From Clostridia bacterium (GTDB taxonomy: Bacteria > Bacillota > Clostridia > Christensenellales > Borkfalkiaceae): a stretch of DNA of 64,000 nt. The stretch lies in the NCBI GenBank assembly GCA_017399945.1, contig JAFQAQ010000005.1:1-64000 (forward strand). Direction: 5' to 3'. The notes below the pieces were generated by a model that worked only from the letters and a program-made list of their open reading frames with translations, had not been told where the DNA came from and did no database searches. Position numbers and translations under genes: made by a program. Positions 2,908 to 46,587 of this stretch are shown here, one piece after another. The first letter of the stretch is position 1, and each line of letters starts with the position of its first letter.

Positions 2908-4155
2908 ATGAAGGTTAAACTAGGTTTTATTGGTCTTGGTCAACGTGGTGCTGCGTTTGGTATGAAAGACGGCAGTATCGGGCTTTTGGGCAACGTTTTA
3001 AACAACGCTAAAGATTGTGTCGTTACCGCTATTTGCGACAAGTATCAGGAGCGTTTGGACGCCGCGTGCAAACGAATTACTGATAACGGTGATCCCACTC
3101 CGTTTATGACTACCGATTACAAACAAATTCTTACTGCCGGTGTTGACGCTATTATTATTTCTACTAGTTGGGATATGCACGTTAAAGTTGCGTTAGAAGG
3201 TATGCAAGTCGGTATTCCCGTTGCTATGGAGGTAGGTGGTACTCACGACCTAGAAGATTGTTGGAAACTAGTTGATATGTACGAAAAAACCGGTACGCCT
3301 ATTTTCTTTATGGAAAACTGTTGTTATAATAAAGACGAAGCGCTTGTTACTTCGCTCGTTAGAAACGGCGTTTTAGGCGATATTTCTTTTTGTCAAGGAT
3401 ATTATTGCCACGACCTTCGCGAAGAAATCTGCGGCGGTATAGACACCCATCACTATCGCTTGGCTGAATATACCAATTATAACTGCGAAAATTACCCCAC
3501 GCACGAACTTGGGCCTATCGCTAAGCTTCTTCATATAACCAGCGGTAATCGCTTTACTAAGGTGGTTTCTATGGCTTCTAAGGCGCAAGGCTTGCATCAT
3601 TATATTATGAACAACCCTAACTATAAAGATAGGTTAGGTGATAGGGTGTTTAAGCAAGGTGACGTCGTTACTACTATGATTGAATGTGAAAACGGCGAAA
3701 CTATTTTCCTTAAACTAGATACCACTCTTCCAAGACTTTACGAAAGGGGGCTTACTGCTAGTGGTACTAAGGGTTTTTATTGTCAAACCACGGGCGCTGT
3801 CGTTTTAGATAATATCGATCACGAAAGCACCAAGTATTCGGATATGTTCTTTACCGATAAAAACTATTCTGAATACCTTCCCGAAGAATGGCGTAGTATT
3901 ACCCCCGAACAAATGAAATCAGGTCACGGTGGTATGGATTTCGTTATGCTAAAAAACTTCGTTGATTGTGTTAAGAACAAAAAACCTTTCCCAATCGACG
4001 TTTACGATGCCGTTACTTGGATGTGTATAACTGCTTTAAGCGAACAGTCTATTGCCGGTGGTTGTATTCCCGTTGAATGTCCAGATTTTACTCGTGGTAA
4101 ATATAAAACCCGTAAAACGGTTGATACTTTTAATTTCCCAATTATTAATAAATAG
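2908..4155 (+). CDS. Gfo/Idh/MocA-family NAD(P)-dependent oxidoreductase
   Basis: 415 residues starting at ATG 2908, which has a good AGGAGG-like site (GGAGGAAGT) just upstream. The open frame extends back to 2707 but would cross a terminator. The N terminus KLGFIGLGQRG is a Rossmann dinucleotide-binding motif. The AMEVGGTHD segment near residue 105 occupies the position of the family's catalytic E-K-P stretch but has G-G instead of K-P. The C-terminal half carries the alpha/beta sugar-binding domain (SGHGGMD near residue 335). The family oxidises or reduces sugars and sugar derivatives; the substrate here cannot be read. It stands alone between two terminators. Confidence 0.85.
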   Translation: MKVKLGFIGLGQRGAAFGMKDGSIGLLGNVLNNAKDCVVTAICDKYQERLDAACKRITDNGDPTPFMTTDYKQILTAGVDAIIISTSWDMHVKVALEGMQVGIPVAMEVGGTHDLEDCWKLVDMYEKTGTPIFFMENCCYNKDEALVTSLVRNGVLGDISFCQGYYCHDLREEICGGIDTHHYRLAEYTNYNCENYPTHELGPIAKLLHITSGNRFTKVVSMASKAQGLHHYIMNNPNYKDRLGDRVFKQGDVVTTMIECENGETIFLKLDTTLPRLYERGLTASGTKGFYCQTTGAVVLDNIDHESTKYSDMFFTDKNYSEYLPEEWRSITPEQMKSGHGGMDFVMLKNFVDCVKNKKPFPIDVYDAVTWMCITALSEQSIAGGCIPVECPDFTRGKYKTRKTVDTFNFPIINK

Positions 4156-28562: not shown

Positions 28563-28599
28563 ATAGATAATGAATTTTATAATAGGAGAAAATTGCAAA

Positions 28600-29559
28600 A
28601 TGATACAGAAGAAGAGAAAGATTGCAGTACTTGGAACTGGTAACGTAGGCGCTACCGTTGCTTATGCTTTAACTTTACAGGGCGTATGTTCCGAAATAGT
28701 ATTAGTTGATATTAACAAAGAAAAGGCAGAAGGCGAAGCGTTAGACCTTTCTCAATGCGCTGCTTGCGTACCCTCTGTAAAAGTTTGGAGCGGTGAATAT
28801 GAAGACGTTAAGGATTCCGACATCGTAGTAGTTACTTTTGGCGTAGGTAGAAAACCCGGTCAATCCAGACTTGACCTTGCAAAGATTAATATTGGTATCT
28901 TAAAGAGCGTTATGCCTAACGTTGCAAAAATTGCACCTAACGCACTTTACGTAATAGTTTCTAACCCTGTTGACGTATTAACTTACGTTACTATGAAATG
29001 CACCGGTCTTCCTGCCAACCAAGTAATCGGTACTGGTACTTTACTTGACTCTAATAGATTAACCCAAGCAGTTGCTGAATACTGTGGTGTAGACGCACAC
29101 AACGTAAACTCTTACGTTTTAGGTGAACACGGCGATGCTTGTATGGCTCCTTGGAGTTTATGTAACGTTGCAGGCTATCCTGTAAAAGAATACTGCAAAA
29201 AGTTTATGGGCGTTAGTGAAGAACAGTTAGACGTTGAATTAGAAAACATCTATACCGGCATGGTTGCAGCAGGCTCTAAGGTTATTAAAGCAAAAGGCGC
29301 AACTTTCTATGCAATTGCAGCTTCTGCCGTTCAACTTATCAAAGCACTAGTTGCAGACACCAACACTATTTTACCCTTATCTACCGTTCTTAACGGTGAA
29401 TACGGTGCAAAAGATCTTTGCATGGGCGTTCCTTGCATGGTTGGTGGTTCTGGATTTAAGAAGGTTATCGAACTTCCTTTAACCGATGCAGAAAAGAAAC
29501 TTTTCGACGAAAAGATTGCTTCTTTAGACGCAACCTACAACGCGCTTGAAGTAAGATAA
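28600..29559 (+). CDS. L-lactate/malate dehydrogenase family protein
   Basis: 319 residues from ATG 28600 (AGGAG 11 nt upstream). The family reduces pyruvate to lactate or oxaloacetate to malate with NADH. Seen are KIAVLGTGNVGATVAYAL (Rossmann), LVDINKEKAEGEALDL, the substrate Arg in TLLDSNRL, and catalytic His in GEHGDACMAPWS. KGATFYAIA matches lactate dehydrogenases. The coenzyme loop, however, reads GRKPGQSR: Arg84 stands where classic lactate dehydrogenases have the substrate-selecting Gln and malate dehydrogenases have Arg. Codon use suggests high expression. Lactate is the default call; malate is a real alternative. Confidence 0.85.
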   Translation: MIQKKRKIAVLGTGNVGATVAYALTLQGVCSEIVLVDINKEKAEGEALDLSQCAACVPSVKVWSGEYEDVKDSDIVVVTFGVGRKPGQSRLDLAKINIGILKSVMPNVAKIAPNALYVIVSNPVDVLTYVTMKCTGLPANQVIGTGTLLDSNRLTQAVAEYCGVDAHNVNSYVLGEHGDACMAPWSLCNVAGYPVKEYCKKFMGVSEEQLDVELENIYTGMVAAGSKVIKAKGATFYAIAASAVQLIKALVADTNTILPLSTVLNGEYGAKDLCMGVPCMVGGSGFKKVIELPLTDAEKKLFDEKIASLDATYNALEVR

Positions 29560-29580
29560 TTAAATACCCAAACATATACA

Positions 29581-29690
29581 TTGTAAAGGGGAGTAGTTGA
29601 CGCGTGTTAACGCGTGTGTGCTATCGTCAGTACGGATTTTTATCCCGGTAGTACAGAATTACAAAAGTAATTTTAACGAGACTTTTACCG
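29581..29690 (+). promoter_or_regulatory. yybP-ykoY (manganese) riboswitch
   Basis: The hallmark pieces are in order: AAAGGGGAGTAG at 29585-29596, TATCGTCAGTACGG near 29622-29635, CCCGG at 29644-29648, a small ATTAC/GTAAT hairpin, and AACGAGACTTTTACC at 29675-29689. P1 pairs 29583-29589 with 29682-29688, including one G-U pair. Known members bind Mn2+. The 3' strand of P1 is also the 5' arm of the terminator at 29679, so metal binding would free transcription. Confidence 0.9.
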
Positions 29691-29719
29691 TAATTTTCTT
29701 ACGGTAAAAGTCTCTTTTT
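29679..29719 (+). terminator. Riboswitch expression-platform terminator
   Basis: A perfect 15-bp stem (29679-29693 with 29699-29713), a 5-nt loop and a T tract. It shares bases 29682-29688 with riboswitch P1, so the two folds exclude each other. Confidence 0.9.
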
Positions 29720-29733
29720 CTAAGGAGATAATG

Positions 29734-31035
29734 ATGAAAATTTTTGTTTTGGCAGTTTTTATTTTAATGTACGTTTTTATTATAGCGTTACCTAAACATA
29801 AAACTTGGTCAACGGGAATTGCAGCGCTTATTACCAGTGTTGCGCTAATAATAAATAAGGATTTTCTTATTTACGAACCATTTCTAAATATTAAACTAGA
29901 CGTTATATTTATGTTGGTTGGTATAATGGTAACGGTTGGTATGTTTGCCGACAGTAAAATGCCGAATAAACTAGCGGACAAGTTAATTTCAAAAATGCCT
30001 AACGCGTTATTTGCACTTGTGTTTTTAGCTGTTCTAAGCGGAGTAGTTTCTGCTGTGGTTGATAACGTTGCAACCGTTTTAATGCTTGCTCCAATCGGTA
30101 TTGCCGTTGCAAGAAAAATTAACGTTTCCCCTATTCCAGTTATTATATCAATTGCAGTGTCTTCTAACTTACAAGGCGCTGCAACGTTAGTTGGTGATAC
30201 CACGTCTATAATGCTTGCCGAAGCACTTGGAATGAACTTTTTTGACTTTTTCGTATTCCAAGGCAAAGCTTCAATCTTTTGGGCAGTTGAACTTGGTATG
30301 CTTTTTACTATTCCCATTCTTATATTAATTTTTAGAAAAGAAAACAAAAAACTTGAATACGCAATGGAAAACGTAAAAGTAAATACCATTGCTCCCACAA
30401 TTATTTTGCTTGTAAACTTTGCTTTATTGGTAGTGTCTTCCTTTATTGATTTTCAAATTAAAATAAACGGAATGGACGTAACCAAAGGTTTAATTTGTCT
30501 TGCATGTGGATTGGTTTCGGTTATAGTTTATACTATAAGTCAAAAAAATAAACTGTCAGATAACTTAAAGAATAGTTTAGACTTGGAAACGATATTCTTC
30601 CTAATTTTCTTGTTTATAATTATAGGTTGCGTTGAAAAGGTTGGTATAATAGCTGATATAGGAAACGCGTTTAGCAAAATAGGTAGTAAAAATCTATTCT
30701 TGCTATACACCATAATCGTATTTAGTTCGGTGGTATTCTCTGCGTTTATTGATAATATACCATACGTAGCAACCATGCTTCCCGTTATAAACGTTTTATC
30801 AACAACGTTACCCGCTGGCGCTTCAACGGTATTATATTTCGGATTGTTGATAGGTGCTACCTTAGGTGGAAACTTAACAACCTTTGGCGCTTCGGCAAAC
30901 ATCGTTGGTATCGGTATATTAAGAAAGGAAGGATATGACGTTAAAAATGCAGACTTCTTTAAGATAGGTATTCCGTTCACCTTAGTTGCAGTTTTAGCCG
31001 GTTACGTTTATACTTGGCTCGTATGGGGCATCTAA
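29734..31035 (+). CDS. ArsB/NhaD-type ion transporter, candidate Mn2+ exporter
   Basis: 433 residues from the second of two adjacent ATG codons (29734), which is better spaced from AAGGAG than 29731. About 11 hydrophobic segments and the superfamily motifs VVDNVATVLMLAPI (~residue 108) and SAFIDNIPYVATMLP (~340), each with Asp-Asn in a half-membrane segment, as in ArsB, NhaD and CitM-like carriers; GATLGGNLTTFGASAN is near 376. The substrate cannot be read from the family, but the Mn2+ riboswitch directly upstream points to manganese efflux. It stands as a single-gene unit. Confidence 0.85.
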   Translation: MKIFVLAVFILMYVFIIALPKHKTWSTGIAALITSVALIINKDFLIYEPFLNIKLDVIFMLVGIMVTVGMFADSKMPNKLADKLISKMPNALFALVFLAVLSGVVSAVVDNVATVLMLAPIGIAVARKINVSPIPVIISIAVSSNLQGAATLVGDTTSIMLAEALGMNFFDFFVFQGKASIFWAVELGMLFTIPILILIFRKENKKLEYAMENVKVNTIAPTIILLVNFALLVVSSFIDFQIKINGMDVTKGLICLACGLVSVIVYTISQKNKLSDNLKNSLDLETIFFLIFLFIIIGCVEKVGIIADIGNAFSKIGSKNLFLLYTIIVFSSVVFSAFIDNIPYVATMLPVINVLSTTLPAGASTVLYFGLLIGATLGGNLTTFGASANIVGIGILRKEGYDVKNADFFKIGIPFTLVAVLAGYVYTWLVWGI

Positions 31036-31059: not shown

Positions 31060-31095
31060 AACACCCTGAACGTTACGTTCAGGGTGTTGTTTTTT
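31060..31095. terminator. Bidirectional terminator between convergent units
   Basis: A 13-bp stem (31060-31072 with 31076-31088) and T tract. It lies between the ArsB/NhaD-type permease gene and the minus-strand sepF gene. Confidence 0.9.
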
Positions 31096-43887: not shown

Positions 43888-46587
43888 ATGGATTTTTACA
43901 CTCAATCAGTAGAAAAGACCTTAACGGCAGTAAATTCTAACGCCACAAACGGATTAGACTATTCGGCACTTAAACAAAACGCTGATAAATACGGGTATAA
44001 CAGCCTTACTCAAAAAAAGAAAAAGAGTTTTTTTAAAAAGGTAATAGACGCCTTAAAAGAACCCATGCTTATAATACTATTATTCGGGTTTGCAATCACC
44101 TTTGGTGCGAATTTAGGTAAATACTTAAAAACGGGCGAAGGTGATTTTATAGAATGTTTTGGAATATTGGCAGCAGTAGTGCTTTCGGTAGGAATTACTT
44201 TGTTTATGGAAGGTAGTTCTGAACGTGCTTTTGCATCGCTAAATAAGATTTATCAAAATCAAACGGTAAAAGTTATTCGCTCGGGCGAAGTAGTGGTGTT
44301 AGATAGACGATTTTTAACCGTTGGGGATATCGTTTTTTTAGAAGCAGGGGATAGAATCGTCGCTGATGGACGTCTAATTGAAAGCACTTCGCTTACCGTT
44401 GACGAGTCGGCGTTAACAGGCGAAAGTCTTTCTGTAAGAAAGGATTGTCATAAGATATTAGACAAATCCGTTGTTCTTGCAGAAAGGGTAAACTGTGTAT
44501 ATTCAGGCACTTTCGTAACGGGTGGAAGTGGAAAGATGGTTATTACTTCGGTTGGTGATCACACGGAATTAGGTAGAATTGCCGGTGAACTAAATGAAAA
44601 ACAATCTACAACTACCCCCTTACAACAAAAGCTTAACAAACTTGGCAAAACCATTACGGGTATTGGCGCAACTTGTGCGCTGATAATTTTGGTTATATCT
44701 ATGGTAAGATTAGCTCTTGTCGGGCAGTTTACCTTTAATAACGTTCAAGACCTATTGATAGATTGTATAGTTTTAATCGTTGCGGCAGTTCCGGAAGGAC
44801 TTCCTACTATCGTTGCTATGTCGCTTGCGCTAAACATGATAAAACTTGCTAGTCAAAACGCTCTTATAAAAAAGATGTCGGCAACCGAAACGGCAGGCGC
44901 AATAAGTATTATTTGTTCGGACAAAACGGGAACGCTTACTAAAAATCAAATGAGCGTTGTAGGCATTTGTTCAAGTCAATATTGCGTAAATGCAAGTAAA
45001 CTTCAAAATCAAATTTTTATACAAAACTTTATTTGCAACAATACGGCTGAAATCGTAAAGGAAGGCAGAAAAACCGTTTATAAAGGGAGTGGAACGGAGT
45101 GTGCGCTATTAAAAGCGTGCATTGAAAAGGATAAAGGATTAGACTACGCAGAATATAGAAAAAATTATCCTATTACCTATCGTTTACCTTTTTCTAGCGA
45201 CAATAAATATATGATTACGGTTATTCGGCAAGAGGGTGCGTATAGGTCTTTAATTAAAGGCTCGCCGGAGACCGTGCTTTTAAGGTGTAAATTAACTAGC
45301 GCGCAAAAAGAAACGGTTTTAAGGAACATATCCGAACGCCAAAAGAACGCCGAAAGGATTTTATGTTTTGCGCACTTGGATATGGAAAGAAGTGATGAAA
45401 ATCTAGCAGAAAGGTCACAAAACTACGTTTACGATGGGTTTGTTGCACTTGCCGACCCAATAAGACCAGAAGTAAAAAAAGCCGTTTTAGACTGCAAGAA
45501 AGCAGGGATTAAAGTAAAGATTTTAACGGGTGATAACGTTACTACTGCTTATGCTGTTGCAAAGCAACTAGGAATTGCCCAAAACGAAAGTAACGTAGTG
45601 AACGCTTTATACTTAGAAAGTTTATCCGACCAAGAACTAAAAAGAATGCTCGGTAAAATTAACGTTATAGCGAGAAGCACCCCAATCGTTAAGCTAAGGG
45701 TGGTAAGAGCGTTAAAAGAGATGGGTGAAGTGGTTGCGGTAACGGGCGACGGAATTAACGACGCGCCTGCAATTAAACACGCTGACGTTGGAATAGCAAT
45801 GGGTGTTGCCGGCAGTGAAATCACCAAAGAAACAGCTGACGTTGTGCTTTTAGACGATAGCTTTGCCACCGTGGTTAAAACGGTATCTTTTGGAAGAAAC
45901 GTGTATAAAAACCTTCAAAGGTTTATACTCTTTCAATTATCGGTAAACCTTTCGGCGCTTTTGTTTATAACTATATGCACGTTATTAAACTTGCCAAATC
46001 CTTTTAACACCTTGCAACTTCTTTGGATAAACGTAATTATGGACGGACCTCCGGCCCTTACGTTGGGCTTAAATTCGGCAAACGATAGTTTAATGAGCCA
46101 TAAACCCGTTAAAAGGTCGGACGGAATAGTAAGTAAAGGAATGTTGCTTAGAATTATGCTTAACGCTTTGTTCGTTTGTGGGGTAATGGTTTTGCAAACG
46201 TTAACCAACTTTTTGGGCGCAAGGCAAAGCCAATTAAAAGGCGTAAGTTTCACTTTGTTTATTTTGTTCCAACTCTTTAACGCGTTTAATAGCATTGAAC
46301 TTGGCGACGAGAGTATACTAAAATCAGTATGGAAAAATAAGATAATGTTGTATACCTTTGGTGGAGTCTTTTTATTGCACGTAATTATAGTGCAAACTTG
46401 TTCGGGGTTGTTTGGCGTAAGTCCCGTGGACTTTATAACTTGGTGTAAGTGCATTTTAACTGCCTTTTCAATTATAGTTATTACAGAGATAGTTAAACTA
46501 ATTGTAAGAAAAACGAGAAACACCAACGTTAATTTATTTGCAAAAAGACAAATAAACGTACTGAAAAATTCTACAAACGACGGTTAA
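43888..46587 (+). CDS. Cation-transporting P-type ATPase, Ca2+ (P2A) type
   Basis: 899 residues. Actuator motif LTGES (~172), PEGL in membrane helix 4 (AAVPEGLPTIVAMS, ~300), phosphorylation site SDKTGTLTKNQM (~347), nucleotide-domain KGSPE, hinge TGDGINDAPAIKHAD (~620), and NVIMDGPPALTLG in helix 6 with the Asn/Asp calcium ligands. It lacks metal-binding domains at the ends. These pumps expel Ca2+ from the cytoplasm. GGGGG lies upstream of the ATG. Single-gene unit with ytxC following by 38 nt. Confidence 0.93.
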   Translation: MDFYTQSVEKTLTAVNSNATNGLDYSALKQNADKYGYNSLTQKKKKSFFKKVIDALKEPMLIILLFGFAITFGANLGKYLKTGEGDFIECFGILAAVVLSVGITLFMEGSSERAFASLNKIYQNQTVKVIRSGEVVVLDRRFLTVGDIVFLEAGDRIVADGRLIESTSLTVDESALTGESLSVRKDCHKILDKSVVLAERVNCVYSGTFVTGGSGKMVITSVGDHTELGRIAGELNEKQSTTTPLQQKLNKLGKTITGIGATCALIILVISMVRLALVGQFTFNNVQDLLIDCIVLIVAAVPEGLPTIVAMSLALNMIKLASQNALIKKMSATETAGAISIICSDKTGTLTKNQMSVVGICSSQYCVNASKLQNQIFIQNFICNNTAEIVKEGRKTVYKGSGTECALLKACIEKDKGLDYAEYRKNYPITYRLPFSSDNKYMITVIRQEGAYRSLIKGSPETVLLRCKLTSAQKETVLRNISERQKNAERILCFAHLDMERSDENLAERSQNYVYDGFVALADPIRPEVKKAVLDCKKAGIKVKILTGDNVTTAYAVAKQLGIAQNESNVVNALYLESLSDQELKRMLGKINVIARSTPIVKLRVVRALKEMGEVVAVTGDGINDAPAIKHADVGIAMGVAGSEITKETADVVLLDDSFATVVKTVSFGRNVYKNLQRFILFQLSVNLSALLFITICTLLNLPNPFNTLQLLWINVIMDGPPALTLGLNSANDSLMSHKPVKRSDGIVSKGMLLRIMLNALFVCGVMVLQTLTNFLGARQSQLKGVSFTLFILFQLFNAFNSIELGDESILKSVWKNKIMLYTFGGVFLLHVIIVQTCSGLFGVSPVDFITWCKCILTAFSIIVITEIVKLIVRKTRNTNVNLFAKRQINVLKNSTNDG

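Follow-up and report, generated by a model that had tools for sequence, protein, structure and literature searches.

The locus and its leader

The window considered here is the whole stretch of 64,000 nucleotides that was analysed, positions 1–64,000 of the forward strand of contig JAFQAQ010000005.1 (assembly GCA_017399945.1), from a Clostridia bacterium of the Borkfalkiaceae whose genus is one of uncultured gut bacteria. It carries a unit in which an L-lactate dehydrogenase gene, a riboswitch leader and the gene of an ArsB/NhaD-type permease follow one another:

28570–29559, forward strand: L-lactate dehydrogenase gene ldh (NCBIfam L-LDH profile above its cut-off)
29580–29691, forward strand: yybP-ykoY (Mn2+) riboswitch aptamer (models R2 and R1, covariation; RF00080 at 22 bits, under its cut-off)
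29583–29589, forward strand: P1.1 5' strand, GUAAAGG (pairs with 29682–29688; 98% of cells paired in 31 leaders)
29590–29595, forward strand: L1 core of the GGGGAGUAG motif (invariant columns)
29596–29598, forward strand: P1.2 5' strand (pairs with 29675–29677; all cells paired, with UA/CG changes on both sides)
29600–29615, forward strand: P2 hairpin (changes on both sides in 6 of 6 pairs)
29618–29654, forward strand: P3 arm with L3, UCGUCAGUACG (invariant CGUCA)
29656–29673, forward strand: P4 hairpin (74% of cells paired; both-side changes in 5 of 7 pairs)
29678–29719, forward strand: intrinsic terminator (16-bp stem, 5-nt loop, T5)
29722–29727, forward strand: ribosome-binding site AAGGAG (from the sequence)
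29731–31035, forward strand: gene of an ArsB/NhaD-type (CitMHS, IT superfamily) permease of 434 amino acids (Pfam; AlphaFold2 model and structure matches)
31060–31088, no strand assigned: bidirectional terminator closing the unit (sequence scan)

The permease gene probably starts at 29734 rather than 29731, a choice favoured by the spacing to the ribosome-binding site and by the fact that most relatives begin with MK. A sequence-only reading of this DNA had described a single transporter gene behind the element; one permease does follow it, but the unit is not free-standing, since ldh ends only 23 nt before the start of P1.1. The same gene lies directly upstream of leader and permease in the source-genus loci examined, and a consensus scan found no promoter between ldh and the leader in the window and none that is consistent in relatives. 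Because ldh adjoins the leader and no promoter match separates them, the permease is probably reached by read-through from ldh, which would make ldh the source of transcription and the riboswitch its gate. Outside the source genus the arrangement differs: in Butyrivibrio hungatei (L022), for example, the locus lacks ldh, and upstream of the leader stands a promoter-like TTGACA-17-TAAACT.

Class and switching of the riboswitch

Assignment of the leader to the yybP-ykoY class draws on two purpose-built models. R1, made from 31 leaders, matches 29580–29691 in the window with an E-value of 3e-25 and recovers both verified Mn2+ riboswitches of Escherichia coli, those of mntP (5e-9) and alx (1e-5). 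R2, trained without the source genus on nine other Clostridia leaders and these two E. coli riboswitches, matches the same coordinates at 67.6 bits (E 3.8e-16), its sole match in the 64 kb up to an E-value of 10. Homology to proven Mn2+ riboswitches is thus found from both sides, R1 reaching the E. coli pair and R2, which includes that pair, reaching the window. The leader carries the motifs of the class, namely GGGGAGUAG in L1, UCGUCAGUACG in L3, CCGG, and GAGACUUUUAC in the 3' strand of P1.

The alignment of 31 leaders supports helices P1, P2, P3 and P4 around a junction by covariation, with 90% of cells paired and both-side changes in 25 of 35 base pairs; none of 500 shuffles matched any of the five covariation measures. 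The L1 (GGGAGUAG) and L3 (CGUCA..) cores are invariant in these leaders, and so is A29629, the counterpart of the adenosine that contacts Mn2+ through its N7 (A41 in Lactococcus lactis and A48 in Xanthomonas oryzae; PMC6754395). On the strength of the R2 match, the covariation and this adenosine, the class named in the sequence-only reading stands: the window leader is a standard representative of a riboswitch class already known. Sensing of Mn2+ by the leader is near certain, and the RNA very probably binds the ion itself. Two leaders of related permeases, L035:2840-2934 and L076:2828-2926 (33 and 41 bits with R1), seem to be without P2 and are possibly a three-way-junction variant of the class.

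The Rfam model RF00080, proposed earlier as a check on the element, gave a divided answer. There is no match for the window leader at the gathering cut-off of 45 bits, but the isolated 186-nt stretch scores 22 bits with an E-value of 1.5e-4. We read the sub-threshold score as a weak negative because just two of the nine control genomes with an RF00080 match reach the Rfam cut-off, and it was this weak performance that led us to build new models from relatives. In a separate scan of 20 loci whose leaders are clearly of the yybP-ykoY type, such as L185–L252, RF00080 at an E-value of 0.01 gave one match, at L224, on the strand of the leader and under the gathering score. The model is insensitive in Clostridia.

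A mutually exclusive P1 and terminator had also been claimed, and the coordinates agree. The terminator stem pairs 29678–29693 with 29699–29714, followed by T5, and its 5' arm includes the entire 3' strand of P1.1 (29682–29688), so that only one of the two structures can form at a time. Of 38 related leaders, 35 were found by script to share this overlap, and two of the three misses show it by eye.

The closest known parallel is the yoaB Mn2+ riboswitch of L. lactis (PMC11087558, PMC6754395), a transcriptional ON switch that has in common with the window leader the four-helix aptamer, the L1 and L3 cores, the Mn-contacting adenosine and a P1.1 3' strand that doubles as part of an intrinsic terminator. 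It differs in its target, a P-type ATPase rather than an ArsB/NhaD-type permease, and in its setting, since the window switch sits between ldh and the permease. The E. coli mntP and alx leaders are of the same class, with targets in the MntP and TerC families, and according to PMC11647493 the mntP switch acts on translation. In L. lactis, Mn2+ stabilises P1.1 and thereby permits transcription (PMC11087558). By analogy with that layout, the window leader would be a Mn2+-sensing transcriptional ON switch. At low cytoplasmic Mn2+ the 3' strand of P1.1 would be drawn into the terminator and transcription would stop; at high Mn2+ the ion would bridge L1 and L3, with N7 contributed by A29629, and the bound aptamer would keep P1.1 closed, so that no terminator forms and the permease is made. 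At the related locus L001:2900-3000, where the permease is 65% identical and ldh lies upstream, the aptamer is lost and the terminator kept, for which reason that permease gene may be silent or under some other control.

Conservation of the pair and other targets of the class

R1 finds the leader in 40 of 44 source-genus genomes, and coordinates together with open reading frame comparison place it directly before the permease in 34 of the 44. Among the remaining six leaders, one (G018) is cut by contig ends, one (G013) has no assignment, and four (G005, G011, G023 and G061) precede a P-type ATPase. In public genomes, 27 of 80 related permease loci have a leader in front, 13 in the clade of the window and 14 elsewhere, in Lachnospiraceae, Oscillospiraceae and other Clostridia; 52 of the 80 have none in front, a few of these being cut by contig ends. 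On the permease tree the leader's presence requires 11 changes, at least 10 of them forced by supported branches, and none of 500 shuffles gave a number as low. The link between leader and permease has therefore been made or lost many times.

The P-type ATPase is a second target in the genus. With the filters off, ten further source-genus genomes have an own leader of the class before a P-type ATPase, 10 of the 17 source-genus ATPase upstream stretches carrying one, and most of these ten genomes also carry the permease with its leader. The rule of exactly one riboswitch per genome, which we had entertained, was an artefact of strict filters and is rejected on the count of 10 of 17. We also rejected replacement of the permease by the ATPase at one and the same locus, as the switches of G005, G011, G023 and G061 have different gene surroundings that lack ldh. 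The ATPases of G005 and G011 were scanned, and both score best, under the cut-off, with the PMR1-type (Ca2+) profile. At L032:1631-5770 a permease without a leader, a riboswitch (2986-3090) and a P-type ATPase follow one another on one strand.

In the genome of the window itself one riboswitch of the class was found. There is an MntP homologue with no leader detected before its gene, and TerC, UPF0016, Nramp and a DtxR/MntR-type regulator were not found in this assembly, which is about 93% complete. With a lone riboswitch and no MntR/DtxR regulator, the sole Mn2+ sensor identified in this genome is the one that controls the permease. The window also encodes, at 43894–46218, a P-type ATPase that has 36% identity to the ATPase under riboswitch control in G005; no riboswitch leader precedes it.

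Among 71 leaders from the rest of the order, beyond the source genus, the first downstream gene to be recognised is a Na/Ca exchanger in 21, a P-type ATPase in 16, an oxaloacetate decarboxylase beta subunit in 15, MntP in six, a Na/Pi-PhoU gene in four, a permease of the window type in two and a Band 7 protein in one, with none assigned in six. The identity of the ligand is less certain for these order-level leaders because they score lower (29–70 bits) and some of their L3 loops are altered. The permease is one of several carriers under a yybP-ykoY switch in Clostridia.

Several of these loci deserve mention in their own right. The commonest target, the Na/Ca exchanger-type carrier, is found at L191, L197, L207, L208, L211, L214, L252 and others; control of yrbG by a yybP-ykoY switch has already been reported in Vibrio vulnificus (PMC13274385). 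Oxaloacetate decarboxylase beta follows a leader, lying in the first ~150 nt, at L194, L200, L203, L209, L218, L219, L226, L227, L236, L243, L245, L248 and others, and the leaders of L226 and L243 have CGCUAACAC in L3 in place of CGUCAACAC, which might reflect a changed metal specificity. A leader of the class stands before a Band 7/SPFH protein at L222, and a DUF368-type (undecaprenyl-phosphate translocase-like) gene occurs farther behind the leader at L192. The Na+-linked targets raised the question of a Na+ riboswitch of the DUF1646 class, a candidate we rejected on finding no such Rfam match on 20 loci.

The permease and its probable substrate

The sequence-only reading placed the target among ArsB/NhaD/CitM-type carriers, and profile and fold both bear this out. 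Pfam assigns the permease to CitMHS (147 bits, 7e-43) and, slightly above the cut-off of 22.2, to ArsB (24.7 bits, 1.9e-5), while the records of its relatives are annotated as ArsB/NhaD family transporters. No NCBIfam model exceeds its cut-off, the weak matches being to MamN, ArsB, DASS and NhaD (NhaD_1 at 19.6 bits against a cut-off of 80). The AlphaFold2 model (pLDDT 87.6) is closest to the arsenite pump ArsB (PDB 10tp; Z 39.3, 3.0 A over 413 residues), followed by NaS1 (Z 35.9) and INDY. Profile and fold together place the protein in the ArsB/NhaD permease branch of the IT superfamily. The Pfam and NCBIfam scans list IT-superfamily families alone, and so place it in none of MntP, TerC, UPF0016, P-type ATPases and CDF.

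Within this fold the permease has a residue pattern of its own. D111-N112, D341-N342, D156, N381 and N390 are invariant in 41 relatives, which sets two invariant acids, D111 and D341, at the hairpin tips beside the tip asparagines. The alignment to ArsB equates N112 with Asn111, N342 with Asn337 and D156 with Asp148, so the asparagines of both tips and the Asp148 equivalent are kept. Unlike ArsB, the permease has acids before the tip asparagines in both repeats, and Ser380, Asp370, Lys374 and Asp112 of the pump (residues from PMC13381914) are replaced by Ala387, Thr377, Asn381 and Val113. The DASS family has the fold in common with it (VcINDY at Z about 28, NaS1 at about 36), but where DASS carriers have SNT in the first hairpin the permease reads D-N-V, the second repeat having an invariant D-N-I, and its score is far under the DASS profile cut-off. 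On these residue tests both an arsenite pump and a DASS anion carrier were rejected. Two extra acids beside the ligand asparagines would make the predicted pocket a better fit for a cation than for arsenite or an anion.

We consider that the best explanation of these observations, and a reasonably probable one, is that high Mn2+ switches on a Mn2+ exporter of ArsB/NhaD (IT-superfamily) fold. The permease would be an elevator-type carrier of the ArsB/NhaD branch whose most likely activity is the export of Mn2+ against H+ or Na+; Mn2+ is the substrate we favour with fair confidence, and efflux is the direction suggested by an ON switch. Of the two readings offered earlier, a Mn2+ efflux system of a different fold and an exporter of another ion tied to Mn2+ status, the first is the better supported because PMR1-type P-type ATPases stand under leaders of the same class in the genus. 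This is the class to which Mn exporters known to be under riboswitch control belong. The invariant acids D111 and D341, next to the tip asparagines, also fit a cation. Against this reading stand the MntP homologue in the window genome, since Mn2+ efflux may be served already, and the 52 of 80 permease loci with no leader in front.

The second reading is that Mn2+ is a mere signal and that the permease carries a different ion (Na+, Ca2+, or an anion such as phosphate or citrate) whose transport helps under Mn2+ stress; it is unlikely but has substance. Given the Na/Ca exchanger, oxaloacetate decarboxylase beta and Na/Pi-PhoU genes behind order-level leaders, a place behind the riboswitch is not in itself enough to mark a protein as a Mn2+ exporter. 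The NhaD and DASS profiles match the permease weakly, and anions are the substrates of many of its fold relatives. Yet the other leaders of the class found in the genus precede P-type ATPases, PMR1-like in the two tested, and D-N in place of the DASS SNT argues against an anion. That several carriers stand under the switch speaks for a part in exporting metals or ions, while keeping this alternative alive.

Pairing with ldh raises the possibility that the permease carries lactate or another organic acid, the Mn2+ switch being a metabolic link, and the DASS and TRAP structures among its fold relatives would fit such a role. We regard this as improbable, since outside the genus the leader and permease are found where ldh is absent and where they have their own promoter-like site (L022), and the other target in the source genus is a P-type ATPase and no acid carrier. 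Import of Mn2+ as a metal-citrate complex, in the manner of the CitM/CitH-type CitMHS carriers, is suggested by the name of the Pfam family, and CitM of Bacillus is an established importer of Me2+-citrate. It is nonetheless very improbable here: an importer induced by high Mn2+ would worsen the Mn2+ load, and no CitM/CitH-type model is among the NCBIfam matches. An arsenite efflux pump, for which the best structure match and the marginal Pfam hit speak, can be practically dismissed on NCBIfam ArsB scores of 39–47 bits against cut-offs of 415–760 and on the four replaced ArsB residues.

The reading as a Mn2+ exporter may have a parallel in E. coli YbiR, a protein distantly related to the permease (BLASTP E 0.01; hhalign E 3e-5 but with a probability of 72%) whose gene overlaps the end of mntR and so adjoins the Mn regulator gene. 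YbiR differs in being only about 20% identical and in having no riboswitch, and its position by mntR is a hint of independent support for a connection between such permeases and Mn.

The main bacterial families of Mn2+ efflux are CDF, MntP, UPF0016 and P-type ATPases, to which TerC is added (2026 paper, PMC13274385). The riboswitch class is known, and the target family is the new part; we found no prior report of a Mn2+ riboswitch paired with an ArsB/NhaD permease in a search that did not take in the founding papers of the class, where an earlier mention is possible. Clostridia Mn2+ regulons are probably under-annotated, because RF00080 misses most such switches. The clade has invariant D-N at the tips of both hairpins and is repeatedly found under Mn2+ riboswitch control across Clostridia; whether it is a further elevator-type family of bacterial Mn2+ exporters seems to us evenly poised. 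Because the coupling of a Mn2+ ON switch to this kind of carrier is conserved and has arisen repeatedly, the clade is a candidate for another such family, with a fold otherwise known for anions and arsenite. The coupling may also shed light on proteins like E. coli YbiR, whose gene lies next to mntR.
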